Shown here: one piece after another, positions 1,723 to 29,628 of the stretch
How the letters are laid out: every line of letters starts with the position of its first letter
Numbering within the stretch: position 1 is the first letter of the stretch
Virus record (IMG/VR): IMGVR_UViG_3300000227_000022
Coordinates: 10-31,743 of that record
Direction: 5' to 3' (one strand)
DNA from: a virus
Length of the DNA: 31,734 bases
Translations under genes and position numbers: made by a program
Notes under the pieces: model-generated
What the model was told of the DNA's origin: nothing
What the model saw: the letters and a program-made list of their open reading frames with translations, nothing else
Databases searched by the model: none

Positions 1723-2247
1723 ATGTATAAGAAAATTAAATCAATTAAAAACTATGGTGGTGGCGGAGGTGTTGGTGCAGCTTCACCAGCTGCAATGGCC
1801 CCTTGGTCGGCCGCAGGTGCACCTTCCTCTGGAGCTACAGATCCCGGGAGGCCGATGAGTGCTATGGGAAATATGGTGAAAGTACCACAGGACTCATTCA
1901 GTTCAACACCAGACCTCTCAGCTGGATTTCCAGCAGGTACCAACCAACCTTCTATGCAGAGTGCTATGGGCGGTAAAGGTGTATCTCCTCAAGGTGGTAG
2001 TGGTTTCGGACCACAAACCATGAGTGGGACTCCGGGTCCACATCAACTTATGCCTAAGTGGTGGACACCAGAGGCTCAACAAGCTAGGGCAGCGGCAGCG
2101 GCAGCATCTTCTCCGCGAGCAGCACAATATGCAGACTACGGTGACTCCCCTGATGGAAGTGCAGGTGCTGCTGCTAATGCTGCTGGTGCTGCGGCGTCGG
2201 CAGATGCGGCATCGGGCGGCAACGACGGTACTAGTGGCGTCTGGTAA
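1723..2247 (+). CDS. Low-complexity virion-operon protein with N-terminal MYKK-tag
   Basis: This 174-aa protein is of no recognised family. It starts with MYKKIKSIKNYGGGGG, a basic segment followed by a glycine run, and continues as a Gly/Ala/Ser/Pro-rich, probably disordered chain ending in an alanine-rich stretch. There is no membrane segment or enzyme motif. A strong AAGGAG lies five bases before the ATG. The next gene begins with almost the same N-terminus. Its position between the fibre genes and the ejection proteins suggests a minor virion or connector protein, but this is inference. The codon phase is real: the run of ribosome sites and tight spacing is conserved through the operon. 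Confidence 0.55.
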   Translation: MYKKIKSIKNYGGGGGVGAASPAAMAPWSAAGAPSSGATDPGRPMSAMGNMVKVPQDSFSSTPDLSAGFPAGTNQPSMQSAMGGKGVSPQGGSGFGPQTMSGTPGPHQLMPKWWTPEAQQARAAAAAASSPRAAQYADYGDSPDGSAGAAANAAGAAASADAASGGNDGTSGVW

Positions 2248-2263
2248 TACAAAGGAGATGAAT

Positions 2264-2953
2264 ATGTATAAAAAAGTAAAATCTATTAAACACTACGGTG
2301 GTGGTGGAAGCGGTATGCCTACTCCTACGATACCAGATTGGATGCGTCCCGGAATTGAAGGGGTTGTTAATCAAGCAGGTACTCTCTACTCTAGTGGCGA
2401 CTTGAGCCATGTAGCTGGAACATCTCCATTGCAAGACCTAGCATTCGGACAAGGTGCAGACGGTATATCATCTGCTACTACTGGAGGACTAGCTACACTT
2501 AAAGCACAACAAGATCGTCTCTCAGGGTTAGCAACTGCACCTAGCGCAGAGACATTGGCAGCTCAGAAAGCCGGTATTGTCCAAGATGCTCAGAAGAGAG
2601 TAAGTGGTTTGAATACCCAATTTGGGGGGACAGGTACCCTCGGCTCAGCTCGCCAAGCTGTAATGCAAGGTGCTCAGAATGCTGAAACTACAGGGCAACT
2701 CGCTAAAGTAGATGCTGAATACGAAGATAAGATGTTCAAGAATAGACTCGCTGCTGAAGGTGCTCTCGGTAGTTCCGTAGGCGCAGGCGGTTCACTCGCA
2801 TCTCAAGGTGCATCCGGGCTTGCTCAACTTGGTGGTCAACAACGTACCATTGATCAAGCACAACAAGATGCACCTTGGCAAGGTTTATCTCGAATGGCTT
2901 CAACTGTATTTGGTAATCCGACTCGACAACAAGCTTCAGCTGGAGGTAAATAA
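2264..2953 (+). CDS. Small internal virion-like protein (gp14-like position) with N-terminal MYKK-tag
   Basis: This is a 229-aa protein. It opens with MYKKVKSIKHYGGGG, matching the start of the preceding gene. It then has a Gly/Ser/Ala/Gln-rich helical region with coiled-coil character (TLKAQQDRLSGL, AETLAAQKAGIVQDAQKRV) and the segment NTQFGGTGTLGSARQAVMQG, which resembles phage internal virion proteins seen beside transglycosylase-bearing ejection proteins. A T7 gp14-like role in the ejection channel fits its size and position but is not proven. The frame is open far upstream. I chose ATG 2264 because AAAGGAG lies six bases before it and because the N-terminus then matches its neighbour. 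Confidence 0.5.
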   Translation: MYKKVKSIKHYGGGGSGMPTPTIPDWMRPGIEGVVNQAGTLYSSGDLSHVAGTSPLQDLAFGQGADGISSATTGGLATLKAQQDRLSGLATAPSAETLAAQKAGIVQDAQKRVSGLNTQFGGTGTLGSARQAVMQGAQNAETTGQLAKVDAEYEDKMFKNRLAAEGALGSSVGAGGSLASQGASGLAQLGGQQRTIDQAQQDAPWQGLSRMASTVFGNPTRQQASAGGK

Positions 2954-2955
2954 TT

Positions 2956-3516
2956 ATGTCAGCATGGGACTGGGTTGATGAAGATGAAGAAGAAAGAAAG
3001 AAGAGGAGCGCCTCGAATACAATCAAAGCAGGCTCACCAGACATGCCCCCTCCTGCACCTAATGCACCTCCCGGTGTAATCGGAACAGCAGCTAACATTG
3101 GGGTAAACAGAGGTATCAATGCTGGTATCGATAAAGCACCTGCTGCTTGGGAATGGGCTAAGAATACTATTAATCCGACACGGGCTATTAACGGACTAGA
3201 TGCTATCCCAGTTGGCGGTGAGGTTGCTAGTAGTGCACTACCTGCACTATCCGAAGCTGCAACTACAGCTGCTATGGAATCAGCAGGAGCAGAAGCACTC
3301 GGAGCATATGCTGTACCAGCTCTTGCTGAAGGAATTGGTTCTGCGGCAATCCCAGCTCTTGCTGAAGGCGCAGCTGCTGCTGCTGGTACTGCTGCTGCTG
3401 GTACTGCTGCTGGTGCTGGTGGATTGGCAGCGGCGGCTGGCCCCTTAGCTGCTATGGGTCCGATTGGGTTGGGCATCGGAGCTTTATTACTAGCCAAAAA
3501 ACTAAAGATATTCTAA
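2956..3516 (+). CDS. Ala/Gly-rich virion-operon protein with hydrophobic C-terminus
   Basis: This is a 186-aa protein that I do not recognise. The N-terminus is charged (DWVDEDEEERKKR), the middle has a proline-rich linker (PPPAPNAPPG), and the last 80 residues are strongly Ala/Gly-rich. It ends in a hydrophobic segment (PLAAMGPIGLGIGALLLA) capped by KKLKIF, which could insert in a membrane. The start follows a GGAGG-type site. Its stop overlaps the ribosome site of the transglycosylase gene. A role as a membrane-active ejection component is possible, but only from context. The alanine-rich codons create a long spurious antisense frame. Confidence 0.5.
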   Translation: MSAWDWVDEDEEERKKRSASNTIKAGSPDMPPPAPNAPPGVIGTAANIGVNRGINAGIDKAPAAWEWAKNTINPTRAINGLDAIPVGGEVASSALPALSEAATTAAMESAGAEALGAYAVPALAEGIGSAAIPALAEGAAAAAGTAAAGTAAGAGGLAAAAGPLAAMGPIGLGIGALLLAKKLKIF

Positions 3517-14561: not shown

Positions 14562-15120
14562 TTACCGAATTGGACATGCTCCCGTGGCGCAATCGTCCTC
14601 TAACCCGATATTAGCCTCAGAAATAGAGTTAATAGGGCGGGTTGACGCTACAAGTGTATTGTATTCTTCTTCAGAGATCTCCTCAAGTGGCGCTTGTTTA
14701 AAACCGTGTTCACTATGGAGTAAGAAAGACAACGATTTATGGTTAGTCTTGTAGTTTTTCTTGAGATACTTCTTGATCTCCGGCAGTTCCTCTAAACGGT
14801 AATAAACAGTGCAACTTACAGAGTTATCTGACCAGACTTCTTGCAACCACTTAACGGTTTCAAGCTGTTGAATTGCAGTAACATCCTTTGCCAAGACAGC
14901 GTGGTCTGGATGACGGAATGGGAATGAAACAACAACAGTAGAGTGGTCTTCCGAGTTATCAAAGTTACGTTGGTATTCGACAGGGTATCCGTGGTCTTTG
15001 CAGACTTGTACAAGCGCATGGTTAGAGCTAATCCGGATACGACGGATCATGTAACGGGCGTAAGCGGGGTGACATCCGGGGGTAACTCCGGGTAGGAGAG
15101 AGAGTGTTCCTGATGGTTTG
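14562..15120 (-). CDS. Ribonucleoside-triphosphate reductase, adenosylcobalamin-dependent (class II), exon 2
   Basis: This is the C-terminal 185 residues of the reductase, from the lysine of KPSGTLSLLPGVTPG (nucleotide-phosphate loop) to the end. It includes YMIRRIRISSN, the VSFPF segment, and a C-terminal C-x4-C pair (CATGACPIR) that shuttles electrons to the active site. The exon begins with the base C at 15120, which completes a GTC valine codon split by the intron, so TTV-KPSG is restored in frame. Without splicing, the only available start would be an ATG inside the intron end, which is not a natural protein start. It joins exon 1 at 15925. Confidence 0.88.
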
Positions 15121-15682
15121 CAATGGTTCGACATTGTTCGTTAGACAATGCCCGTTTTCTGAGCCTATAGTAATGTGTCTTACTGATTCCAAATTTCTTA
15201 GTTGCTTCTATGAATCGATAGTTCAGAACCTCAAAAGAATATTTCTCTTGAGTTTCCCAATATTTATCTGAAGCTTCCTTGCATATCTGTTTAATTTCTT
15301 TTGTATGGTGCATGCCTAAAGCTGGTGTTCTGCCAACTCTTGCTGCCCTCAATTTATTTCTCCAGTCCTCAATATCTTCTTCTGACTTACTAAGGATACT
15401 AAAACCACCCATCCCACCGGGATGAAGGTTATAAGTCTTACCTTTGTATGAAGATATGATATCTATCTCTGCTTGTTCACAATCTTTTCTGTTTTCGAAT
15501 TCATTTAGAATAGAAAATTCAAAGTTGTCCCAACCATATGCGCGTACCGCACAATAGATTGGAGATTTAACACCGCGTTTTGCAGCATTCTTATGACAAG
15601 AGATTCTTAACTTGAAGTTATTTGTTATACCAAAATAAACAGTTCCACTTAATTTATTTGTAATCATGTACAGTGTGTTCAT
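15047..15682 (-). CDS. GIY-YIG homing endonuclease encoded by the group I intron
   Basis: This is a 211-aa endonuclease of the I-TevI class. The N-terminal GIY-YIG domain shows LYMITNKLSGTVYFGIT, a conserved Arg (LRISCH), the metal-binding Glu in CEQAEIDII, and YNLHPGG. Residues about 115-150 resemble a NUMOD3-type DNA-binding element (TPALGMHHTKEIKQI), followed by a helix-turn-helix-like end (ATKKFGISKTHYYRLRKRAL). It has its own strong ribosome site (AAGGAGG, seven bases before ATG), downstream of the intron core. It probably cuts intronless alleles to spread the intron. The last 24 or so codons run past the 3' splice site into exon 2 in a different frame, so the complete protein can be made only from unspliced RNA. 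Confidence 0.85.
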   Translation of the reverse strand: MNTLYMITNKLSGTVYFGITNNFKLRISCHKNAAKRGVKSPIYCAVRAYGWDNFEFSILNEFENRKDCEQAEIDIISSYKGKTYNLHPGGMGGFSILSKSEEDIEDWRNKLRAARVGRTPALGMHHTKEIKQICKEASDKYWETQEKYSFEVLNYRFIEATKKFGISKTHYYRLRKRALSNEQCRTIANHQEHSLSYPELPPDVTPLTPVT

Positions 15683-15924
15683 TACTATACCTCCTTTAAA
15701 ACAGCTATAAGTTTCCTTATAGATCGGACTATATCATCTTCCATTTGGAAGTTGTGCGCTTCCACAGCACTCGCTGCGTACTCCCCTGAGGGATAGTCTC
15801 TGAACCTTCCAACTAGTTGTTGGCTCGGCTGCTGATTGACATAGGTACCAGGGATACCCTTAGCGTTCCAGCAATTCACACAATTATTCGACATTAGTTA
15901 CCTAATGAAGCCGCCAATGTATCA
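15121..15924 (-). ncRNA. Self-splicing group I intron in the ribonucleotide reductase gene
   Basis: This is an 804-base intron read on the minus strand. The core elements are all visible: P (aattgctggaacgctaag, 15859-15876), Q (aatcagcagccgagcc, 15822-15837), R (gttcagagactatccc, 15790-15805) and S (gatatagtcc, 15726-15735). P4 forms from GCUG/CAGC and P7 from GACUAU/AUAGUC. P9 is a perfect 7-bp hairpin at 15705-15722. P1 pairs exon CCGU with intron GCGG, with the required U-G wobble at the splice site. The adjoining UUG pairs with the first exon 2 bases CAA (P10). The last intron base is G. These define both splice sites to the base and restore the reductase frame. A hairpin (cattgt/acaatg) lies just before the 3' end. 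Confidence 0.93.
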
Positions 15925-18008
15925 ACGGTTGTCAGTTTGATAGATGGATTGAATTCCAGCTTCTTACTGTACTTCTTATCGTATTCCCTAAGCTGCTTAT
16001 AGGTTTCATCTAGCCAGCCTAGTTGTTCTTTCGTAGCTTGCATTACCCCAGTCATCCCGATACCCATACGCATGTTCTTATGAACGATAGCTTCGGTGAT
16101 CTTTTGATGACACGGTAGAGCAAGCGAGTGTTTACTTACTCGGTATAGAAGAGTTGCTACATCTAATAGTTCTTTCTTTGATTCAATGTTTGGAAGGAAG
16201 ATCTCGGAGAGGCAGCAGGTTTCACCATCTGCTAGAGATTGCTCGGCGCAGTTGTGGACAATGATGTTGTCAGCTACAAAGTTATGGGTATCCTCTACTG
16301 AGATGTCATATACATCTGTTATTGGGCCTTCTTCGATTGCAACAACTAGAGGCCAGTTCGTAAGACCTGTTCTCAAGTGGCCTGGTACATTCTTAATCTC
16401 TTTTTTGTATCCACTGTTGGTTGCTTTGAAATCACCATTCTCATCCCAGACTTGGTGATCATTATCACAAAGCGATCTTGTCAAAGTTGAATGTTCTGAA
16501 TGCAACATGCATTCTAGGTTTTCAATTGTATTATTGAAAGTATCTTCATCAACATGGTGGACATCATACCCATCTGGTATCTTTCCAAACAAACCTTCCC
16601 ACACTAACCTGTGTTCCATTGTTTGTTCTTTCACTGGTTGAGACGTCAATCGAACTCCAGAATAAGCAGTTCCTCTTCGTGTTCTTGATAAGTGAACAAC
16701 ACGATCTCCTATGTTGAGGTATCCTGCTTCAACCCACCCTCGGTTAGCAGTGAAGATCTTGTGATCAGGTGTACACACTACTGTTGCACCTGTGTTGATC
16801 TTAACTTTTATTGTTTTAGCATTCTTTTTACTTACCCAACTTGCAGTTGCTTGCTTGATGCAGAGTTTCCCAAGTGCATCCATACTGTAAACCTTCATAG
16901 GCTCTACCATATCTGCGATTCGCACTTGACCGTTTACTGTTGATACAAGTGTATCAGGGTGCAAACAAGGATTATATCCAGCTACATCTGGATCTGGGTA
17001 TTCAGTCTCTCCGAGACGACCTACTTTCCTGGATAACTTAATGTTTATTAATCCATACGGTTCTGATTTACCTTCATAAGTGTCCCAGAAGTAATCATGA
17101 AGATCATTTATATCGTTACAAACAACACTGTTGTTTGACATAGCTCTCCAAGAAGGGATACCTCCAATGTCCCATCGTTTAGCTAATAGGAACTCTACAT
17201 CGTCTGCATCACCGATAGCAATCTGTGCGGATCTACGAACGTTACCCGCTACTACAACTGCTCCAATGATATTCATGATATCAAGGCAATCGATAGGACG
17301 TAGTTGTTTCCCTACACGTTTCTCGATAACAGATGATATCTTGTCGATACCCCACACCAAATCCTCTGGTCCAGAAGCAGTGCCTCCGAATCCCTTGATA
17401 GCAGCGCCTTTAGATCTAATCAGCTGCGTCGAGTAAGTGAACGTCTGCTTACCTGAGTCGTGTGCTAGGAATGCTGCCTTCAGAGTTTTCCCGAGGAGTG
17501 CAACCCACCCTTCTCTACTGTCTGGAACAATGAACTCTGCTCCGCTATCGTTTGTACGGGTAGGTGGTTTGAAATCTAGGTTGACAGGTGGTAGCTTACT
17601 TACATTTTCTTTCTGGATATTATAGCCGACACCTGAGCCTAACATAAGGAGATCCATAGCCCATGTGAAAGGTTCTACTGGGTTATCTATAGTTCGAAAT
17701 GCGCAGTTTTGGAGAGAGGCAAGCCCTAGTTTACCTACGGTATCAGTACCGAGTTGCCACCAGAAGCGACCTGCAACTGATCCTTTGAGTGTTGTTAAAT
17801 AACGACGCAATCGTTCGTTCTCATCATCTGTGAATCCGCAATGCAGCTGTTCATTCGAAGCCTTAATAACTCGTTCAATAGTATCTGCAAACTCCTCTGT
17901 TGGAGAGTTGATATCATCCTCATTTAAGCGTCGAGAGTAAGTTCTTTTATAAGTGAGGTACCCTACAGATGACCAAGGTGTTATATATTCTACGGAAGGT
18001 GTGTTCAT
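15925..18008 (-). CDS. Ribonucleoside-triphosphate reductase, adenosylcobalamin-dependent (class II), exon 1 with intein
   Basis: This enzyme converts ribonucleotides to deoxyribonucleotides using a cobalamin-derived radical, feeding phage DNA synthesis. It matches the monomeric Lactobacillus-type RTPR family. Blocks include ASLQNCAF (first redox cysteine), DLLMLGSGVGYN, and NPCAEQSL with the thiyl-radical cysteine. A second redox cysteine lies 11 residues later (GETCC). The frame is open to 18086, but ATG 18008 is the likely start: AAGGAA precedes it, and the protein then begins like relatives. A 239-aa intein splits NP from CAEQ, and a group I intron follows TTV. The mature protein would be about 641 aa (347 + 109 + 185). 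It lies downstream of the RNA polymerase gene behind a hairpin and upstream of thioredoxin. Confidence 0.9.
16251..16967 (-). mobile_element. Intein with HNH homing endonuclease inside the reductase
   Basis: A 239-aa protein intron is read in frame with the reductase. It begins with the nucleophile Cys in CLHPDTLVST (block A). It has the block B TxxH motif (VVCTPDHKIFTANRGWVEAG) and ends with blocks F and G (VYDISVEDTHNFVADNIIV-HN), followed by the +1 Cys of the host protein. The middle carries an HNH_3-like endonuclease: EHRLVWEGLFGKIPDGYDV, HHVDEDTFNNTIENLE, then HSEHSTL. All residues for autocatalytic splicing are present, so it should be active. Excision joins ...GYNP to CAEQSL, restoring the NPCAE active-site motif. 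The +1 Cys is the catalytic thiyl cysteine of the reductase, so the enzyme cannot work until splicing is complete. Confidence 0.93.
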
Positions 18009-18086: not shown

Positions 18087-20294
18087 CTAGCAGAAGAAGT
18101 ATTTAGAGTCTTTTAGAAGACTTAAGTCTAGTGTTCCCAATTCAGGCTCTGGATAAGTAAATGAGTCCTCACTTTCCATAAGCATATTCTTCAAGATAGT
18201 AAAGAAGTTAGGTACATCATACTGCGCTACAAAGGTCATCTTAGTTACCTCTTGCAGGAAATCGATATCTTCCGCATGAGAAGAGAAACTATCGTGTACT
18301 GCTGCAAATGAACCGTTGAATATCCCAATTGTATTTGCCATGTGTGAAGCATCTAAACTGTGTACAAAGTTAGGAGAGATACCTGAGGCAAAGCTTCGAC
18401 GGCAAGGTATAAGTTCCTTTGTTTCCTTGCTAATAGCATTAACTTTGATAACATGGTTGATCCTACCATCTTTATTACCAATGATACCTTTGATAGTTGA
18501 CCTCTGCTTACGCTCATGCTGAAGGTATGCTTTATAAACTACAGGGAATCCACTTGGTGTTACCCAAGTTAGATGGTTTCTCCCAGAAGCTAGCTCATGT
18601 TCAGCTATTTTCTGTAATAATTTAGCAGTCTTTAACTGACCATTACATACAGTATTTATAGCTGAGATTAGTCCTGTCGCTAGCTTGTCACAATCGTCTT
18701 CAGATATGTCATACTTTTTAGTGAATCCTTCAACATGGAGATCGTTATACATGTTCGAGGATATCTTCTTCTTGCCTGCTGAGTAAGCTCTTGTCATTGA
18801 ACCGCGTTTAGCAATTCCTTTTCGAATGTCTTTCATAGGCATTGCCCTTTGAGAGAACCAATCTGGCATTGTGGATACAAGTTCTTTTGCAACTGCTACA
18901 TAGAAATCTTTAGGGATATCATTGGGGAGGAGAGATACAAGTTCTCCTGCGTGTGCATCTTTAGAGATAGCTGCTAGATGCTGAGAACCATTCGAAGAAC
19001 CATCGATAGGTATCGGTAGTCCACTCTCATAAGTTATACCTGCAAAGACTGCATCTTCGTATGCTGATATTTCCAAACAACCAGCTAAGAAACTATGTGG
19101 CTTCTCTGCTTTGCTGTTTAATAACAGACCTTCAGCCGTATCCCTAATCATACTAGAATTGAGAGTACACCACTTAGCTCTGTCTTCCAAGGTCATCTTG
19201 TCAACGGAGATTGTATCAAGACCTTCCTTTTCAAGATGTTCGATGTAGTCAGATGTTGTCCACTGGTTTATCCTAAGCTCATCTATAGTATATGACTGAT
19301 TGAAACACGATGCTGTGTGGATACATAGCCATCGGAATCCGATCTCTGTTACCTTCTTCTTGTTAGAGAATAAGAATAGTGACCTTGCGAGATCACTCCC
19401 TTGAAACTCTACGAATGATTCTGAGTAATAAACCCTACCTCGATAATCGCAGGAAACTTCTTGGAAGAACTCTCTATCTCCGATTAATTCAGCTTTACCT
19501 ATAATTTGTTTGTATTCAAAGTACTTACTAATTAACCTTTGAAGTTTAGGATCTTTCTTCCCTAGGAAAGGCGTACCATCTGTATTGAGGAGGATAGCTT
19601 TGTCGTCTTTAATATCATTATGGATATTATAAGTTATGATTTCACCATCTTCAGTTATTAGCTCTAAAGATTCTGGCGGTGGGTTCTTCTTGGTTGCATG
19701 TAATACGTTTAAGTTTAACTTCCAAGGTTGTTGCCGGAGAATCTCTAGAGATTTTACAAATGGGGTATTCAAGTGCTCATGGAATAGACGTTGGTTAGTC
19801 CACCCTTTGATGTATGGATCTTTAGTTATCTGGGAGATCAAACCTTGAATTGGTTCTGGTTTTTCAAATACTGTACCTAACAAAATTGGTTTAACATTAT
19901 CTGTTAGGTTAGTTATCCTTAGGATATACGGAGCTTTTCTACCTTCGTACTCTCTGAAGATATCTATTAGGTTATCTTGCAGGAAAGCTTCTAAGAAGAG
20001 GTCACCTAGTGATAGTGTACTTTTGACATTTGTGTCATCAATACCAATATCTCTTGCGATCCTTTGTCCTAGAAGGTTGGAAGAAAAAGTGAGCTTAACG
20101 GCTGCAGAATACTTGGACTGCTTATTGCGAATACAATAGCGAAGCAAAGTATCCCAAGCTTCATATACAAAACGATCAATGTCATATTCCCATAATGGAT
20201 ACGATGCTAGAAGGTATGCACCGTGATTGTAAACTTTATCTGAATCGACTACGACCTTCGATACTTTTTCAGATAAGTATTGTATTGGATCCAT
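18087..20294 (-). CDS. T7-like single-subunit DNA-directed RNA polymerase
   Basis: This 735-aa enzyme transcribes phage genes from phage promoters. The motifs are DYRGR (283-287, the DxxGR motif), motif A PIDGSSNGSQH with D431, and motif B RKGIAKRGSMTRAYS with K496 and Y504. The specificity-loop region is VTPSGFPV to SPNFVHSLDASH (578-651), and motif C is AAVHDSF with D668. It is shorter than T7 RNA polymerase (883 aa), mainly in the N-terminal domain and between motifs A and B (65 residues against 94). Motif B ends YS rather than YG, and the C-terminus is YFFC. It follows the primase-helicase by six bases, with AGGAAACC before the ATG. Unlike T7 gene 1 it is far down the leftward operon, so it is unlikely to be the first gene expressed. 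Confidence 0.95.
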   Translation of the reverse strand: MDPIQYLSEKVSKVVVDSDKVYNHGAYLLASYPLWEYDIDRFVYEAWDTLLRYCIRNKQSKYSAAVKLTFSSNLLGQRIARDIGIDDTNVKSTLSLGDLFLEAFLQDNLIDIFREYEGRKAPYILRITNLTDNVKPILLGTVFEKPEPIQGLISQITKDPYIKGWTNQRLFHEHLNTPFVKSLEILRQQPWKLNLNVLHATKKNPPPESLELITEDGEIITYNIHNDIKDDKAILLNTDGTPFLGKKDPKLQRLISKYFEYKQIIGKAELIGDREFFQEVSCDYRGRVYYSESFVEFQGSDLARSLFLFSNKKKVTEIGFRWLCIHTASCFNQSYTIDELRINQWTTSDYIEHLEKEGLDTISVDKMTLEDRAKWCTLNSSMIRDTAEGLLLNSKAEKPHSFLAGCLEISAYEDAVFAGITYESGLPIPIDGSSNGSQHLAAISKDAHAGELVSLLPNDIPKDFYVAVAKELVSTMPDWFSQRAMPMKDIRKGIAKRGSMTRAYSAGKKKISSNMYNDLHVEGFTKKYDISEDDCDKLATGLISAINTVCNGQLKTAKLLQKIAEHELASGRNHLTWVTPSGFPVVYKAYLQHERKQRSTIKGIIGNKDGRINHVIKVNAISKETKELIPCRRSFASGISPNFVHSLDASHMANTIGIFNGSFAAVHDSFSSHAEDIDFLQEVTKMTFVAQYDVPNFFTILKNMLMESEDSFTYPEPELGTLDLSLLKDSKYFFC

Positions 20295-20300
20295 GGTTTC

Positions 20301-21905
20301 CTATTCAAAATCTAAGAGATCAATGGCCTTTAGTCTTCCGGTTTGTGGATTATATTGAGAGACACCACAGTCACCAGTAAGACCTGTGAATCGAGATTTA
20401 AGAACTCGAAGTTTAATTGTGTTCCTTGCATCATTGTTATCTGCAATCATGTTTCTTGCAAATGCTATTATATCAAATGAGATTTGTTTGATAGAGCCTG
20501 ACCCTTTGATATCATCAATAGATGGCAGGTGCCCTTGTTCAAAGGGCTTCTCTCCTTTCCTTAGGTGAGAGATAACGCCTAGCCAGCAGTTGTGTTTCTT
20601 GGTTATCTTTAGAAGGTCAGACATAACAGAATCTGTTGCTTCATTACCAGACTTACCATTCGCACCTTCTGATACTGCAATTGTGATATGGTCTAAGATG
20701 ATATACTTGCAACCTAATAGGGCTAAGTGTTCAATTTTATCAATCAAGGAAGCATCTCCGACTGCCCCTTGGTGATCTAGAAGTACTAGCTTTTCACTTC
20801 CAAATATAGAAGTAAATGCTTGGTATTCCTCTTCCTGTGTTACGGTATCAACTGATAGATTCTTATTGAGCTGCATTCCGATAAATTTCTGTGCAGTATC
20901 TCCAATGCTTTCTTCCAATGATACCATACCTACCATGTCTTCTGTCTTATTTAAGATTTCTAATACGATTTCTTTTATAACAGTAGATTTACCTGATCCA
21001 GTTCCAGATGTGAATAGAACAATCTCACCTAGTCTCATTCCATGAAGCTTTGTATTGAGACCTGCAAGACATACAGGGTACGGTACTGAAACTGTTTCCC
21101 TTCGTCGTTGGTAGTGTGTCCAGACATCTTCGCCTCTTACAATACCTGCTGGATTAAATGCCTTAGCATTAAACATGCAGGAGATAAGCGTTGTTGCACT
21201 ATGCTTGGTTAATACATCGCAAGCATCTTTCTCTGGAAGTGTTGCTACTTTTACCTTATCGTATCCGATGATCCTAGCTGCTTGTTCAGTTGCTTTTTGT
21301 CCCGGACCATCTTGGTCAAGCATTAGAATAACTTCTTCAAAACTTCTAAGCCACTCCCTTTGCTCAAGCAAGACTGCCATACCAGAGGCAGATGGAATTG
21401 ATACTACAGGGTAGTACCTTTGGTATTTGGAGAAGGAAGCCTCTGCCACGGCAAGTGCATCCAGTTCTCCTTCAGTAATAACCACATATTTGTTACCATT
21501 GGAAACATTTTGCCCAAATAGTTGAACACCTTTGAAGTCTCCGTGGATTGAGAACTTCTTGGGGAGTTGTCTTTCTTTGTAAGCAACGACTTCACCATTC
21601 TTTGTATAGGGATAGAAATGGCTTTGGATTGTTCCGTCTTCACCGTAGGAGACTTTAACCCCGAAGTGCGTTGCCGTGTTCTTGGTGATGCCCCTTTCCT
21701 TGAAACCTCTAGTGTCATAGTTTTTGATTTCCTCTAATGTGTGCATTGAATAGTCTTCTTTAGGGTATTCTGTTGGTTTAAAATTAGGGTCAATAGGTGT
21801 TGACTTCTGGCATGAGAAACAGAATGAAGATTTATCTCCTTCTTTGTATGAGCGGGCATCAGATGACCCGCATTTAGGACATGAAGTGTGTACCCATCTT
21901 GTCAT
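20301..21905 (-). CDS. T7 gp4-type DNA primase-helicase
   Basis: This 534-aa bifunctional replication protein primes the lagging strand and unwinds DNA as a ring. An N-terminal zinc ribbon has CPKC and CFSC (C9, C12, C29, C32). The TOPRIM primase core shows TEGELDAL (E145) and LMLDQDGPG (D197, D199). The helicase has Walker A GTGSGKST (301-308), SLEES (329-333), Walker B YIILDHI (D405), the SHLRKGE segment, and LKSRFTG near the end. The acidic, aromatic C-terminus (LLDFE) resembles the T7 gp4 tail that contacts the polymerase. The length is close to T7 gp4 (566 aa). The start codon directly abuts the stop of a 51-aa gene (TAAATG). Confidence 0.95.
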   Translation of the reverse strand: MTRWVHTSCPKCGSSDARSYKEGDKSSFCFSCQKSTPIDPNFKPTEYPKEDYSMHTLEEIKNYDTRGFKERGITKNTATHFGVKVSYGEDGTIQSHFYPYTKNGEVVAYKERQLPKKFSIHGDFKGVQLFGQNVSNGNKYVVITEGELDALAVAEASFSKYQRYYPVVSIPSASGMAVLLEQREWLRSFEEVILMLDQDGPGQKATEQAARIIGYDKVKVATLPEKDACDVLTKHSATTLISCMFNAKAFNPAGIVRGEDVWTHYQRRRETVSVPYPVCLAGLNTKLHGMRLGEIVLFTSGTGSGKSTVIKEIVLEILNKTEDMVGMVSLEESIGDTAQKFIGMQLNKNLSVDTVTQEEEYQAFTSIFGSEKLVLLDHQGAVGDASLIDKIEHLALLGCKYIILDHITIAVSEGANGKSGNEATDSVMSDLLKITKKHNCWLGVISHLRKGEKPFEQGHLPSIDDIKGSGSIKQISFDIIAFARNMIADNNDARNTIKLRVLKSRFTGLTGDCGVSQYNPQTGRLKAIDLLDFE

Positions 21906-22061
21906 TTAATTCCAATCTCTGTCTTCTTTCAGTTCACGGATAAGTTGACGACGGTAGTGTGCGTCATCTTGTGTTTGTTTCTTTCGTAGGAATGTTTCTT
22001 TAGTAGTTTCCTTTGTTGATTTATCTTCTTTGATTGGCTGCTCTCGTTTTTGTTTATTCAT
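21906..22061 (-). CDS. Small charged hypothetical protein (51 aa)
   Basis: This 51-aa, Lys/Glu/Gln/Arg-rich protein starts MNKQKREQPIKEDKSTKETT. It is probably helical and may bind nucleic acid or a partner. Its ATG lies inside the end of the endonuclease gene, and its TAA is followed at once by the primase-helicase ATG, so coupled translation is likely. No good ribosome site is seen; the case rests on the tight fit and absence of other coding. Function is unknown. Confidence 0.5.
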   Translation of the reverse strand: MNKQKREQPIKEDKSTKETTKETFLRKKQTQDDAHYRRQLIRELKEDRDWN

Positions 22062-22692
22062 TTTTTAATCTTGAAAATACATAACCTTTGTGTGATTTAG
22101 CTTCGCCATTGGCGCATCGGTACACCCTACTGAAGTCTAACCCTGCTGCAACCATTTGATCCATTCCACATAAACGGAAAGTTGATCCGGTTGCTATACA
22201 AGTAGCTTCGATTATACCTTTAAACTGGTGGTTTAGTCTACCCATTTGGGACTTAGAGATCTTTTCTCTAGCTTCATCTGAGTGTTCTTTGCTAATGAAT
22301 TTGATGTTTCCTATAGCATTGTTTATGTACTCGCGCTCACCTTCTTTGTCTTTAGCATAGAGGACTTTTGCTTCCCATTGTACTTCGACTTCGCCTGCAA
22401 CAACTCCAGCCCTTGTATGGTATAGTTGCAGAATTTCAAAGTGGAAATGTTGTACCCCATGTTTTTCAATAGCTTCTGCAATGTTTTTGGAAGATGTTTT
22501 GTAGGTCGTCCAGTCTGATTGTTTTTGTTTTGTTTTCTTTCCGAAATTTGTGTAGAAAAACTTACGTCCGATGTACTTCTTTTTGAACTCTGGATGTGAG
22601 CAAGTAACGAGGTATACAAAACCGAATCTGTTATTCGGTTCCAAGAATGGCTGGTTGTTGTACATCCACAGTGTCTTTGTTTTCTTCGGCAT
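22054..22692 (-). CDS. Free-standing GIY-YIG homing endonuclease (with NUMOD-type DNA-binding region)
   Basis: This is a 212-aa protein. The GIY-YIG core is FGFVYLVTCS to KKYIGRKFFY, with a long insertion after it, and conserved Glu-bearing segments (GEVEVQWEAKVLY). Residues 140-160 have a NUMOD3-like motif (HSDEAREKISKSQMGRLN), and the C-terminus (GSTFRLCGMDQMVAAGLDFS, then VYRCANGEAKSHKGYVF) resembles NUMOD DNA-binding repeats. It sits between the exonuclease and the primase-helicase, overlapping the exonuclease end by 62 bases. GGAG lies just before its ATG. I see no group I core around it, so it is read as a free-standing (Seg-like) element. Confidence 0.8.
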   Translation of the reverse strand: MPKKTKTLWMYNNQPFLEPNNRFGFVYLVTCSHPEFKKKYIGRKFFYTNFGKKTKQKQSDWTTYKTSSKNIAEAIEKHGVQHFHFEILQLYHTRAGVVAGEVEVQWEAKVLYAKDKEGEREYINNAIGNIKFISKEHSDEAREKISKSQMGRLNHQFKGIIEATCIATGSTFRLCGMDQMVAAGLDFSRVYRCANGEAKSHKGYVFSRLKNE

Positions 22693-23434
22693 TGATGCTC
22701 CATGTTAATCTATCTTTCAATTCGTCTAGTGATAGCTGTCTCATATCGTCAGCTGTAGTTCTAATGTATATGCAGTTGGCACACTTTAGAAAACTCTTTT
22801 CCCAATCAGTGTCCCTGTCTTTCCAGACTGCAAGGACATGATCCCATAGTTGTTCAGAGGGGACACCTTTCATTATCTTTTCGGCTGTCTTTGGGCCTAC
22901 CCCTCGGATACCTTTAATATTGTCTGTATTATCTCCAGTTAACATTTGTCCCATAACAAATCGGTAAGACTCTTCTGGTTCAATGAATCGGAAGACGCCT
23001 GTCTTAAAGTTATGATGCCATCCTGGGATGCTGTTTAAGTCTTTATCTATGTGTGATACTATAAATGTTTTTCCTTGTGAGTCTGTATCATATGCTAGTA
23101 TCGAGCAGTAATCATCTGCCTCTCCACCATCAGAAGTCATACAAAAGCCTTCTGAATATTTATAGAGCATCTTGATTCGCTCTCTGACTTCAGGCGTTAC
23201 GTTGTCTGCTCTGTTAGCTTTGTAATCTGGATCGGATAAGATTCGGAAGTTATCAGCGCCTTTAATCAGTACGATAGCTTCCTTAGCGTTTGTATCTTCA
23301 ATGATTCTACTTATCTTATCATCTAGTGTTTTCTTACAGAGTGCTGGTGATGTTTGAGTGTATGCTATGAGATACATTAATGAATCTGCATCTATGATTA
23401 CTACGTCAAACCCTTCGTTTTCCCCGTCATCCAT
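22631..23434 (-). CDS. T7 gp6-type 5'-3' exonuclease (FEN family)
   Basis: This 267-aa nuclease removes RNA primers and degrades DNA 5' to 3'. Motifs are VVIIDADSLMYLIAY (first metal Asp pair), GADNFR and YKANR (arch region). These are followed by GGEADDYCSILAY (acidic cluster), SHIDKDLNSIPGW, and a helix-hairpin-helix with potassium-site residues, GDNTDNIKGIRGVGPKTAEKIM. The order and length match phage FEN exonucleases. The frame is open to 23515, but the ATG at 23434 is chosen. It has GGAG eight bases upstream, overlaps the end of the preceding endonuclease gene by eight bases, and places the DADS motif near the N-terminus as in relatives. The C-terminal 20 codons overlap the next endonuclease gene. 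Confidence 0.92.
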   Translation of the reverse strand: MDDGENEGFDVVIIDADSLMYLIAYTQTSPALCKKTLDDKISRIIEDTNAKEAIVLIKGADNFRILSDPDYKANRADNVTPEVRERIKMLYKYSEGFCMTSDGGEADDYCSILAYDTDSQGKTFIVSHIDKDLNSIPGWHHNFKTGVFRFIEPEESYRFVMGQMLTGDNTDNIKGIRGVGPKTAEKIMKGVPSEQLWDHVLAVWKDRDTDWEKSFLKCANCIYIRTTADDMRQLSLDELKDRLTWSINAEENKDTVDVQQPAILGTE

Positions 23435-23912
23435 TGAGATAGCTCCATCCATTTGTCTCTCTGTACGCCCTTGCGACAGCTGTTTTGTATACAATTCCGA
23501 GTGCCTTGGCTGCAATGCTTACAGAATCAAAGACACCCTCTGGCGTGTTTACTTTCTTTCTGTTTGCAATATGAGCAGCTGATCTTCCAGCTTCTAAGAA
23601 GAGCTGCCTGTCTTCTTCCGACATTTTAGACCACCTTTCTTGAGAACGAACTCCGTTCCTCTCTGTGTGCGCAATGTTGTATTCTGGTTTAAATTGCAGA
23701 ATCATTTCTTTTTCTAAAGAGAGAGCCTCCCTCTCATTGAGAATGTTGTGCATCAAGATTTTTACATTTAGAAGGGGCAGCTGCTGTTCCATTAACTCAA
23801 AGTGGTGTTTATTTCGATCTCTTACACTCCAAGCTCTTTCGTTTTTACCCTTCCCTATGTAAACCAAACAACCCGTATTGTCGTAGTGTGCATAGATATA
23901 ATATTTTGACAT
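23427..23912 (-). CDS. Free-standing GIY-YIG homing endonuclease (161 aa, NUMOD1-like C-terminus)
   Basis: The GIY-YIG motifs are YYIYAHYDNTGCLVYIGKG followed by ERAW (conserved Arg), with the metal-binding Glu in LSLEKEMILQF and the Asn in EYNIAHTERNG. The C-terminal VNTPEGVFDSVSIAAKALG matches the NUMOD1 DNA-binding helix pattern. It is inserted between DNA polymerase and exonuclease, each a replication gene. AAAGGAG lies nine bases before the ATG. No group I intron elements were found around it, so it is classed as free-standing. Such genes usually cut the neighbouring gene in related phages that lack them. Confidence 0.82.
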   Translation of the reverse strand: MSKYYIYAHYDNTGCLVYIGKGKNERAWSVRDRNKHHFELMEQQLPLLNVKILMHNILNEREALSLEKEMILQFKPEYNIAHTERNGVRSQERWSKMSEEDRQLFLEAGRSAAHIANRKKVNTPEGVFDSVSIAAKALGIVYKTAVARAYRETNGWSYLNG

Positions 23913-23925
23913 ATATGTTTCTCCT

Positions 23926-25773
23926 TTAGTGTACTTGTGAATAGTCCCTCCCTATCTGTGCGTTACCAGACATGCAGTTTACTCCAAAGAGCTTTGGCCC
24001 CTCTTCAAATGCCTTTTCTGCAAGGCTTGCAACTCTGTCAGCGTCCTCTTCCCTACATACTAATGCTATCTCATCGTGGTAGAACAATGTAAAGTAGTAG
24101 TCGTGTATCTCACCTTCCCTTAACATCTTTTTTAGACAGACCATCGATGCTTTGCAAGTTATACCTTCTAAAGTTTGCAACAGGTAGTTGAGGAGTTGGT
24201 GCTCTGATGATACGAATATGACCCTGCCATCTATCGCTCGAATGAATGCGTTGTCCTCTCCGAACATATCTCTGGTTGTGTGGTATTGATAAGCTAGTTT
24301 ATTTTTCAACTCTTTCATTCCGGGGATTGAGTCTTGAAACTTATCAATTGCTGCTTGCCCAATCTTTGCATCTCTTTTACCTGTTAAGACGGAACCGAGC
24401 TTACCTGCCCCTCCACCGAAGAGGAATGCGTATAAAAAGGACTTTGCTGTGTCTCTCGAGCACCCCAGTGTGTCAGCATTCCTTTTATGAATATCTACAC
24501 CACTCACTATGTCGTTTGTGAATTCATCATTTTCGAGGTAATGACATAGACCCCTCATTTGGTTCCCTGAAGAGTCTGCTCCCACAACAACGTACCCCGG
24601 TTCGCACTTTAACAAGCCTCTGATTTCCTTTCCATAGGCAGAGGTCACTTTTGGTAAATTAGCGATAACTTCGTGACGGCATCTGAAAGTCGGTGTCCCA
24701 ATGGTCCAAAGTCGCCCCCTAAGCCTTCCATCTTTAGTAGCTCCCTCAATCCATCCTGTCAGAACACCTCGTCTGTTCTTGAGAGTATTGTACTCGTCAA
24801 TGAGGACTCCGTTGTCTCCTAGTGGCTTTAGAGATGCCTCTGTTAGTTTTGGAGATTTGTTTACGAACTTTCCGTTGATTCGTTCAACGTTCCATTCGTC
24901 AGGTTCCCATCCGATACTATAGAGGTAGTCTTTGATGACCACATCTGAGGATAGTTTTCCTTGTTCAAAAGATATGCGACAATAGGCTCCTTCAATGGGG
25001 CGTTCGGATCTACCACTTTCTTGCGTAAACCCGAAGTGCTTGACAGTAGCGACGGTATAGCAACCGTCTTTTCGCCATGTAGGTGTTTTTGTTTCATCTT
25101 CTCCATCTGTTTTTATGCACCGCATTCCGATGCGTGGTTCCATGATGGTTTCTATCTCTACAATTCTTTTTACTATTTTGTTTAAGAGAGCATTTGCTTC
25201 TTTTGTATCGAATAACCACCCTTTGCTTCGGATATCTGCTTCAATTGCTGCGAAATCCATTTCTGTTTGGAGTCCCACCTTGTATAGCGGGTTCTTTTTT
25301 AAGATAGATGTTGCTTCTTTTACAAGTTGGTGATAAACCTTTACATTAAGTTCTACATCTCGGATACAGTATGTTAACATCTCTTTAGAGTAGCTTTCAA
25401 AGGTAGAGAAGTCTAGCTTTGAGAAGCCTAGAAACTCACCCCATCCGGCGAGACCTTGTTTGTGTTTACGTTTGTATCTGTTGGTTTGAGACATTAACCA
25501 TGTGTCTAATACTCTTACAGATGTTGCAGGTTTCCAATTGAGTAGATGTTTTAGTACAACTAGGTCGTAACCTATAAGGTTGTGTCCGAATAGAATGTTG
25601 GCTTTGTTTGCCTCATCTAGTCCTTCCTTAATTGAAGGCAGGTCTTTGTCGTAGTCGGAGTAGGATCGGACTTCGTTTGTATCTGCATTTACTAGAACTA
25701 TACACCATATCTTTGAAACATCGGGCATTAGTCCGTTCGTTTCAATGTCTAGACAATATCTTAGTTTTGTCAA
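23926..25773 (-). CDS. Family A DNA polymerase with 3'-5' exonuclease (T7 gp5-like)
   Basis: This 615-aa replicative polymerase has all catalytic parts. Exonuclease motifs are CLDIETNG (D9, E11), GHNLIGYDL (D70) and YCIRDVEL (D139). Polymerase motif A is VVVGADSSGNQ (D400), motif B RDTAKSFLYAFLFGGG (R440, K444, Y448), and motif C LFYHDEIAL (D567, E568). It ends in His like T7 gp5 (QVH here). It is shorter than T7 gp5 (704 aa), mainly in the thumb and linker. Translation begins with TTG at 25773, overlapping the TGA of the metalloprotease gene, with AAAGG upstream. The first ATG in frame would remove the exonuclease D-x-E. It heads the replication block. Confidence 0.95.
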   Translation of the reverse strand: MTKLRYCLDIETNGLMPDVSKIWCIVLVNADTNEVRSYSDYDKDLPSIKEGLDEANKANILFGHNLIGYDLVVLKHLLNWKPATSVRVLDTWLMSQTNRYKRKHKQGLAGWGEFLGFSKLDFSTFESYSKEMLTYCIRDVELNVKVYHQLVKEATSILKKNPLYKVGLQTEMDFAAIEADIRSKGWLFDTKEANALLNKIVKRIVEIETIMEPRIGMRCIKTDGEDETKTPTWRKDGCYTVATVKHFGFTQESGRSERPIEGAYCRISFEQGKLSSDVVIKDYLYSIGWEPDEWNVERINGKFVNKSPKLTEASLKPLGDNGVLIDEYNTLKNRRGVLTGWIEGATKDGRLRGRLWTIGTPTFRCRHEVIANLPKVTSAYGKEIRGLLKCEPGYVVVGADSSGNQMRGLCHYLENDEFTNDIVSGVDIHKRNADTLGCSRDTAKSFLYAFLFGGGAGKLGSVLTGKRDAKIGQAAIDKFQDSIPGMKELKNKLAYQYHTTRDMFGEDNAFIRAIDGRVIFVSSEHQLLNYLLQTLEGITCKASMVCLKKMLREGEIHDYYFTLFYHDEIALVCREEDADRVASLAEKAFEEGPKLFGVNCMSGNAQIGRDYSQVH

Positions 25774-27275: not shown

Positions 27276-28328
27276 CTATTCTTTATATACCCTATCAAAC
27301 ATTATGTTTAAAACAGAGTCTGGTGTATCTACGTCTAGCAGATTTAACATTTCATTTATAAGTTTCGGTGTCATTTTCCTTGTGTTAATAAATTTGAGAA
27401 CTGTTATTGGGTCTTCTGGATAGATAGCTTCAGCTATTAGGTCTGATATCGGCCTATAGTTACCGTATAGTGCATCTGATAGTGCATCTATTGTATCCAT
27501 CTCTAGGAAATCGCAGTCTTCTTCATTTAGAGGATATGGGTATGTTCCGTAGCCATAGATATCTTCTTCTATTTCATTTGGATCTCTCAATGTTGGGAGA
27601 GCATCCCAGTCTGTTGTGATGATAGCCCTTGCAAGGTCTTCGAAGTGGATAATGTCTAAACATTCTTTATCTGAATGTTCGTTATTGTAACCTACAGAGA
27701 TATTAGTACATTCAGGGATAATATCTGCAAATTCTGCAGTATCTGTGTACACACCTGTATCATCAGGCGAATACATGAACCTTTCAGAGCTATTTAATAC
27801 GTCTGATAGCGTACTTGCAAATTCATCTGAGCAACACCGACCTGCCCATTGGTGAGTTATGATAGAGTCTGTTGCTTTTCTGTCGAATGCGATTGCCCTA
27901 TCGAATTGGCTTAATAACTCCATGCTGTGTTTTCTTAAGAACTTAGCTCCGATACCGCCTACTTCTTCACCTTGTGTAAAGATATAGTATGCAGGGATAT
28001 TGTTACTTATCATGTGGATAAGAAGTGCACAACCTGCACCATCATCTGCACCTAAAGCATCACCATTAGCATACCATTTCTCTTTTGTTTTTCTTATACT
28101 GTTCGGACCTTCTTTGTGGTGAACTGTATCTACGTGTGCTACAAATAGTGTCCTGTTGGAAGTGTCGTGTCTATTATCTACATGTAGATTACCGCAGTTA
28201 TCAAAGAATGATGGGATCTCTTCTGGTATTTGACTTGCTAGATAACTTGTGAAGAACCTTACAGTGTTAGAACCGTGTGGTCTTTTGAGAGAGAGTGCTT
28301 TATTAAGCGTTTTGAGCAGATGGTTCAT
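27276..28328 (-). CDS. M20/M28-like zinc aminopeptidase-family protein
   Basis: This 350-aa co-catalytic zinc peptidase-like protein has the ordered ligand motifs AHVDTVH (H65, D67), LGADDGAG (D95), TQGEEVGG (general-base E121 and E122), AFDRKATD (D149) and NNEHSDKE (H218). This is the M20/M28/M42 arrangement of amino- or dipeptidases. The last 100 residues are acidic and unrecognised. There is no signal peptide. I start it at ATG 28328 with GAGGAAGAG upstream, 26 bases inside the preceding gene; the open frame extends further to 28382. Peptidases of this group are unusual in T7-like replication operons. The substrate is unknown; peptide recycling or host-peptide inactivation are guesses. Confidence 0.7.
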   Translation of the reverse strand: MNHLLKTLNKALSLKRPHGSNTVRFFTSYLASQIPEEIPSFFDNCGNLHVDNRHDTSNRTLFVAHVDTVHHKEGPNSIRKTKEKWYANGDALGADDGAGCALLIHMISNNIPAYYIFTQGEEVGGIGAKFLRKHSMELLSQFDRAIAFDRKATDSIITHQWAGRCCSDEFASTLSDVLNSSERFMYSPDDTGVYTDTAEFADIIPECTNISVGYNNEHSDKECLDIIHFEDLARAIITTDWDALPTLRDPNEIEEDIYGYGTYPYPLNEEDCDFLEMDTIDALSDALYGNYRPISDLIAEAIYPEDPITVLKFINTRKMTPKLINEMLNLLDVDTPDSVLNIMFDRVYKE

Positions 28329-29628
28329 TCTCTTCCTCTGTTTCATATTCGTCAGAATAGTCACTGTGGATCGTTTTACCACCCAATGTCTCTACTTTTT
28401 CATCATCGTCATCATTTAAGTAGTAATCACCTGAGTGCTCACATAGCCAGCAATTGTCTAATAACGCATAATCTCCATCTTTTAGTTGTACGATATCTTC
28501 ATCGTTTGATCGATACCAATCGTCATCAATACATATAGCGTTATCTAGGTGGACATAATCGCCGTTTAATAGCTCTACAATTTCGTTGTCAGAGAGGTAG
28601 TTTTGATGATAGTAACTATCCATGTCGTCTGAGTATACAGCTTCGTCAGAAGGAGCATAGTACTCGGCTCCTCGCCTACCGATTACATATGTGTACTCGT
28701 TGTTTTGACAGGAGGAGCATATGTGGTGATCTTCATGGTAACCTACAGCAACTAGATCGTCTTCGTCACAAGTTTCATCACAATCGGCACATGAGGAGTT
28801 GTGTTTTTCGGTTGCTTCTCCGTTTGTGTTATTGAAGATGTAATCACCTTCATGAATAATTTCAAAGTATTGTCCACAATCACTAACCCCTTGATCTGCA
28901 CCATCTATATATGGTGCTAGAAAACCATATTTTCTATTTGATTTTATTTTTTCTAATTTGAAACCTAACCAGCTGCTCTTTTTCCTGTAACCTTGGTCGT
29001 TTAACCAAGATTCAAGCTGTTGGTCTGAGTACGAGTATCCACCATCCTTTGCTTTGTTGTAGGATCTCACATAAGTTTTTTCATTACATAGAGCACGACC
29101 TACAGTATCACCTTCTTCGATTCGTACAGCCATGTGCCATCCGTATTTAATTGCGTATACTTGATAGGGATGATCATCGTGGTCTTGTCCTTCCCATACC
29201 ATACAAGAGGTTGGTCCTCTTTCGAGGTGGTACAGGATATCTTCCATTGTTTTTACAAATTTACATTCGGACGGGTGAAATAGCGCTACTATGTCTCGAA
29301 TGGTGTGATCTGGCATGCTTCTAAAGTGCATCTTAAGGTATTTACCTACAGACGTCCTTGTCTGTACATCATCTTGCCCTTTTCTTTCATCTCTAGTATA
29401 TGCTATTTGTGTACCGTCTTTTTCAGAGACATGTGGCCATTGAAGAATTAGATCTTGCCAGTTATCTGGTCTTTGAATCTTTACAGCTTTTATAACTGAT
29501 GGGTGTAGTTCTTGAAATTTGTTTTGCAGAGCGTAATGCCAAGGTTTTTCACCTGTTTTTCGTATAGCTCTTGCACCATCTACCATTATAGATAGCATCT
29601 CTTCCGAATCATACTCTTTGTTTTCCAT
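28303..29628 (-). CDS. Acidic Cys-cluster protein with tandem repeats (441 aa), unknown function
   Basis: I do not recognise this family. Residues 1-130 are helical; 140-260 are mixed (GWHMAVRIEEGDTVGRALCN). Residues 280-307 hold C280, C283, C287, C304 and C307, a zinc-ribbon-like cluster (CADCDETC, then ICSSC). Two repeats follow: EIVELLNGDYVHLDN (349-363) and DIVQLKDGDYALLDN (378-392), 29 residues apart. The last 40 residues are strongly acidic (NDDDDEKVET, DEYETEEENE), so the end could mimic DNA or bind a basic partner. It begins nine bases after the 91-aa gene and overlaps the peptidase gene by 26 bases, so the two may act together. Confidence 0.6.
   Translation of the reverse strand: MENKEYDSEEMLSIMVDGARAIRKTGEKPWHYALQNKFQELHPSVIKAVKIQRPDNWQDLILQWPHVSEKDGTQIAYTRDERKGQDDVQTRTSVGKYLKMHFRSMPDHTIRDIVALFHPSECKFVKTMEDILYHLERGPTSCMVWEGQDHDDHPYQVYAIKYGWHMAVRIEEGDTVGRALCNEKTYVRSYNKAKDGGYSYSDQQLESWLNDQGYRKKSSWLGFKLEKIKSNRKYGFLAPYIDGADQGVSDCGQYFEIIHEGDYIFNNTNGEATEKHNSSCADCDETCDEDDLVAVGYHEDHHICSSCQNNEYTYVIGRRGAEYYAPSDEAVYSDDMDSYYHQNYLSDNEIVELLNGDYVHLDNAICIDDDWYRSNDEDIVQLKDGDYALLDNCWLCEHSGDYYLNDDDDEKVETLGGKTIHSDYSDEYETEEENEPSAQNA

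Follow-up and report, generated by a model that had tools for sequence, protein, structure and literature searches.

More than 100 group I introns and approximately 80 inteins had been curated in ribonucleotide reductases in RNRdb by 2009 (PMC2795772), and statistics support a preference of introns and inteins for conserved sites (PMC2814812). An intron and an intein occur together in one phage reductase gene in SPbeta (nrdE), Brochothrix phage A9 (nrdE), and Lactococcus phage 949 (nrdD) (PMC3653736, PMC8270828), and a likely intein was noted in the reductase of phage G20c (PMC6459318). An on-switch function has been hypothesized for phage introns (PMC11878797). No paper describing an HNH intein paired with a GIY-YIG intron in a class II reductase was found in the literature searched, outside of which most subscription papers lie.

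Such a pair was identified in the window, that is, the whole stretch of 31,734 nucleotides analyzed here, which covers almost all of a 31.7-kb linear virus record belonging to a T7-like phage with a bacterial host. The combination is real and has clear precedents, and there is little doubt that this class II reductase gene was invaded separately by two homing elements, one spliced at the RNA level and the other at the protein level. A single enzyme would depend on splicing of its RNA as well as of its protein.

The Reductase Gene and Its Exons

The minus-strand gene encodes a monomeric B12-dependent class II ribonucleotide reductase (NrdJm/RTPR; match to 1L1L, E = 1.6e-80) in which the catalytic Cys and a C-terminal pair of Cys residues are present. 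TIGR02505 matched both exons, although the interruption of the gene left each hit under the whole-protein cut-off. The original prediction placed an HNH intein and a GIY-YIG group I intron in this single gene, between 14562 and 18008, and Pfam, TIGRFAM, and Rfam models located both elements there, with the limits refined to 15924-15121 for the intron proper and 15120-14562 for exon 2 (Table 1). Once the intron is removed, the two exons form a continuous frame (...IKLTTV^KPSGTLSLL, where ^ marks the junction) of 2643 nt without an internal stop, and removal of the intein as well leaves an intact enzyme of 641 aa. The junction expected in the spliced reductase RNA is ...ACCGTCAAACC. As originally claimed, a functional enzyme would need both kinds of splicing, and judging from the sequence, both elements very probably splice. 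Gene finders are liable to fragment reductases that are doubly interrupted in this way. In the replication region of the window, a weak M20/M28 metallopeptidase match, under the Pfam cut-offs, was also detected at 27276-28382.

Table 1. Coordinates of the reductase gene, its interrupting elements, neighboring genes, and comparable inserts in other contigs
Feature	Position	Strand	Basis or remark
Reductase gene	ATG 18008 to stop 14562	-	
N-extein part of exon 1, residues 1-347, ends ...AGYNP	16968..18008	-	TIGR02505, 1L1L alignment
HNH intein, 239 aa, immediately before catalytic Cys codon	16251..16967	-	Pfam, TIGRFAM, splicing residues
Catalytic Cys codon, +1 residue of C-extein	16248..16250	-	Cys408 in 1L1L
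C-extein part of exon 1, CAEQSL...IKLTT	15925..16250	-	includes GT of Val codon
Group I intron, 804 nt	15121..15924	-	starts after ...ACCGT (P1 U.G pair), last base G
Rfam Intron_gpI match	15705..15934	-	covers P1 including its exon strand and the P2-P9 core
In-frame stop (TAA)	15894..15896	-	would end translation of unspliced RNA
GIY-YIG ORF, 211 aa	15047..15682	-	3' part of intron, overlapping exon 2
Exon 2, KPSGTLSLL... to stop, 185 aa	14562..15120	-	
Thioredoxin-like gene	14448-14188		3' of reductase gene
Single-subunit RNA polymerase	18087-20294		
Primase-helicase	20301-21905		
Family A DNA polymerase	23926-25773		
Site-1 inserts in Cys codon	contigs L127, L130, L141, L146, L161, L171-L176		class II reductases

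The HNH Intein at the Catalytic Cysteine

The insert at 16967-16251 matched Pfam Intein_splicing (2.6e-18), contained an HNH_3 match (PF13392, 2e-13), and scored above the cut-offs of the N- and C-terminal intein models TIGR01445 and TIGR01443. It starts with Cys and ends with His-Asn, followed by Cys-Ala-Glu-Gln of the C-extein. Blocks A, B, F, and G were all recognized, and the splicing residues were complete, including C1, TPDH (block B), THNF (block F), the terminal HN, and the +1 Cys. The HH...N...N residues of the HNH motif were invariant in six relatives. In the sequence alignment with the Lactobacillus leichmannii reductase 1L1L, from which residue numbers were counted by hand, the intein lies directly before Cys408, which is established as the catalytic thiyl residue. 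The Hint region of the predicted structure, within a model of moderate overall confidence, resembled solved inteins, the best matches including NrdJ-1 and Mtu RecA (E approximately 1e-9). Silent differences outnumbered amino-acid-changing ones in comparisons of the intein with its relatives (pN/pS 0.24-0.30, with several silent distances saturated). Bacterial and archaeal genomes scanned with the intein alignment yielded five weak or partial relatives, which did not establish a cellular source.

The Group I Intron and Its GIY-YIG ORF

The intron matched the full RF00028 model (positions 1-253) with 82.8 bits (E = 7.5e-20; cut-off, 50 bits). It contains the conserved catalytic core (P3-P8, with the P7 guanosine site), its P1 is formed by CCGU/GCGG, and its P7 is perfect (GACUA/UAGUC). 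The bases at the splice sites, ACCGU^UGAU... and ...AUUG^CAAACC, include the 5' U and 3' G of group I introns. Extra hairpins, a feature of subgroup IA, lie between P7 and P3'. The intron interrupts a valine codon directly ahead of KPSGT, and this codon matches Val547 in the same hand-counted alignment with 1L1L.

An ORF with an in-frame ATG (15134-14562) covers exon 2, and the Thermus phage phiYS40 encodes a split NrdJ as two adjacent ORFs (PMC3653736); the intron might accordingly stay unspliced, with exon 2 being made alone from ATG 15134 as a second subunit. However, the break falls inside a codon, and joining exactly restores a conserved motif. The intron also has a complete group I core, no Shine-Dalgarno-like stretch was seen upstream of 15134 when the sequence was inspected, and the equivalent ATG of a relative with the homologous intron (L126) does not share the frame of exon 2. 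A stand-alone subunit, which the original prediction had named as the finding that would overturn it, is thus highly improbable, and this explanation was rejected on these grounds.

The GIY-YIG ORF is preceded by AAAGGAGGT ahead of its start at 15682, and matched PF01541 (2.4e-12) and, above cut-off, TIGR01453. The GIY-YIG fold of its predicted structure resembled I-TevI (1mk0/1ln0), and R26, H30, E72, and N85, which correspond to the Arg, His, Glu, and Asn positions of I-TevI, were invariant across three relatives. Outside the Hint and GIY-YIG cores, the predicted structures were of low to moderate confidence; as a whole, they added little to the sequence evidence. The pN/pS values of the GIY-YIG protein against its relatives were 0.47-0.48, again with more silent than amino-acid-changing differences and several saturated silent distances. 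The ORF (15682-15047) continues for 74 nt, stop included, beyond the 3' splice site and reads this part of exon 2 in another frame. The related ORFs of L126 and L147 keep a stop ahead of the 3' splice site, whereas that of the window has lost it; its C-terminus is therefore altered, and the ORF may be decaying.

The lost stop would also be expected if the whole locus were a decaying pseudogene carrying dead elements. On the other hand, the exon and intein frames are all open once the intron is removed, neither the catalytic Cys nor the C-terminal Cys pair has been lost, the N-extein has a pN/pS of approximately 0.19-0.24 against L083 and L084, and a thioredoxin-like gene follows next downstream. 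Decay of the gene is the least probable of the alternatives considered, and it was rejected on these grounds.

Two further GIY-YIG-like genes were observed in the window, one SegE-like with NUMOD3 (22054-22692) and one UvrC-like (23427-23912). The two lie next to the 5'-3' exonuclease and DNA polymerase genes and are probably free-standing homing endonucleases.

Empty and Singly Occupied Relatives

Both sites were empty in 81 relatives (L001-L081) that were up to 86% identical, and therefore both elements are insertions, far beyond chance. An intein at the same site and 73% identical was present in L083, in which the intron site is empty, and one 72% identical was present in L084, the contig of which stops short of the intron site. 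The DNA of L001 and L083 is approximately 90% identical, and the intein distinguishes the two. L126 and L147 (the latter being the contig of L184) contained a homologous intron at the same base and no intein, and their GIY-YIG proteins were 54 and 47% identical to that of the window, respectively. The L147 intron had no Rfam match at E <= 0.01; nonetheless, its core aligned well with that of L126. Empty, intein-only, and intron-only relatives with identical base positions are thus at hand as controls.

In the reductase tree, the window fell inside a well supported set (SH-aLRT 99), the other members of which were empty; therefore, the insertions are patchy. The minimum numbers of changes on the tree were five for the site-1 intein (at the catalytic Cys codon), three for the site-2 intron (at the valine codon), and six for site-1 introns, with the split intein of L156 scored as an intein. 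Searching with the site-2 junction pattern retrieved 43 genes, mostly with LTTC rather than LTTV, among which only L126 and L147 had an intron at that site; five others turned out to have site-1 introns. The GIY-YIG protein as a single query retrieved no intron at the same site, and a search with the three-sequence GIY-YIG alignment found more than 40% identity only in the contigs of L126 and L147.

Both elements interrupt essential positions, and phage introns have been suggested to act as on-switches (PMC11878797), in line with the suggestion of the original prediction that double occupancy may delay or gate deoxynucleotide synthesis. A two-step switch that holds reductase activity back to a set infection stage is nevertheless very unlikely, as the 81 relatives do without either element, the intron and intein pair was seen only once in this reductase family, and the distribution on the tree fits mobile elements. 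The idea that the two elements act together or gate dNTP synthesis is unsupported. The double occupancy most plausibly reflects two independent arrivals in a frequently targeted gene. The pre-mRNA would lose the group I intron by self-splicing, joining ...LTTV to KPSGTL..., and the translated precursor would lose the HNH intein, leaving the catalytic cysteine as the first residue after the excised stretch. The HNH and GIY-YIG nucleases would most likely cut the corresponding unoccupied site of a second phage infecting the same cell, into which the respective element would then be copied. Splicing in vivo, nuclease activity, and homing are what we infer for both elements.

Conservation of the two sites was ranked over 631 ten-residue segments of 109 distinct relatives and the window (effective number, 35). 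In this ranking, the intron site came 21st and the intein site 122nd, with VAGNVRRSAQ at the top; N, P, C, and E were invariant at the intein site. The original description of the sites as the two most conserved active-site motifs is overstated: one site is catalytic, and both are conserved without being the top two. Likewise, both element types favor conserved sites, but the convergent targeting that had been considered striking follows an established pattern (PMC2814812) and has precedents in other intron and intein pairs (PMC3653736, PMC8270828).

The Catalytic Cysteine Codon as a Hot Spot

A junction pattern search identified inserts of 167-830 nt that break the catalytic Cys codon after CCGT (CCGT^GY) in 11 contigs, and joining across the insert restored NPCAEQ in all 11. 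These inserts are probably group I introns, judging from a sub-threshold Rfam match of L173 (31.5 bits) and, for the others, from likeness to L173 and the boundary bases, the 167- and 174-nt inserts being unproven. A nuclease-like ORF was present in some of them and absent from others. The introns at site 2 (window 15925) and at site 1 (L127-type genes) share the exon bases CCGU and the GCGG guide, and their cores look different; this common pairing is either due to chance or a sign of spread by reverse splicing.

Inteins of several kinds were found at the same site. L165-L167 and L170 contained a site-1 intein with a LAGLIDADG-like nuclease (type judged by eye), and L085-L088 and L089/L090, which are other reductase types, contained inteins akin to that of the window. 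L156 harbored a split intein (approximately 1854-3032, reverse strand), the N-half of which ends in a stop and the C-half of which is joined to CAEQSL; a separate ORF between the halves resembled PD-(D/E)XK or Vsr nucleases by eye. The survey for co-occurrence, which had been proposed for class II reductases, revealed a second double case in L090 (5001-6830), where a group I intron (67.8 bits) lies 14 codons beyond an intein at the catalytic Cys; its sister L089 has the intein and no intron. The numbers of site-1 and double cases are not frequencies, as the search terms determined which genes appeared.

The catalytic Cys codon is a hot spot common to unrelated element types, and this shared use is less ordinary than the double occupancy of the window. 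The preference for conserved sites is thereby narrowed to a single-codon example, at which unrelated element types are directly comparable. Chances are even that this codon of phage class II reductases serves as a common landing site at which protein- and RNA-level elements replace one another, with HNH, LAGLIDADG-like, or split inteins before the codon and small or ORF-bearing group I introns inside it (CCGT^GY), so that the double occupancy of the window would be a snapshot of an ongoing competition for few tolerant positions.

Comparison with Known Systems

The nrdE gene of SPbeta encodes a class Ib enzyme, whereas that of the window is class II. In a 1998 paper listed in PMC8270828, the bnrdE intron and intein are reported to lack nuclease genes, in contrast to the window, where each element carries one. 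Brochothrix phage A9 nrdE and Lactococcus phage 949 nrdD combine introns and an intein in one gene (PMC3653736), similar to the window; however, A9 nrdE is class Ib with three introns, and 949 nrdD is class III. In Bacillus phage phiNIT1, elements differing in nuclease type likewise colonized a single gene, that of the DNA polymerase, one after another (PMC11878797), although both are introns and no intein is present.

Among class II enzymes, the monomeric reductases of Thermus phages G20c, TSP4, and P23-45_stolb1 are approximately 30% identical to that of the window and contain an in-frame insert, taken as an intein, at the same NPC site; no intron was seen in them. The class II reductase of the cultured Roseobacter phage CRP-7 contains a group I intron (RF00028, 79.2 bits), the core DNA of which is 76% like that of the window over 113 nt. 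This intron lies 13 codons downstream of the start of the catalytic Cys codon and carries another ORF, and the gene has no intein. The CRP-7 locus (L177, 262-2880) is annotated as two CDS and a hypothetical protein and is actually one intron-split class II reductase gene.
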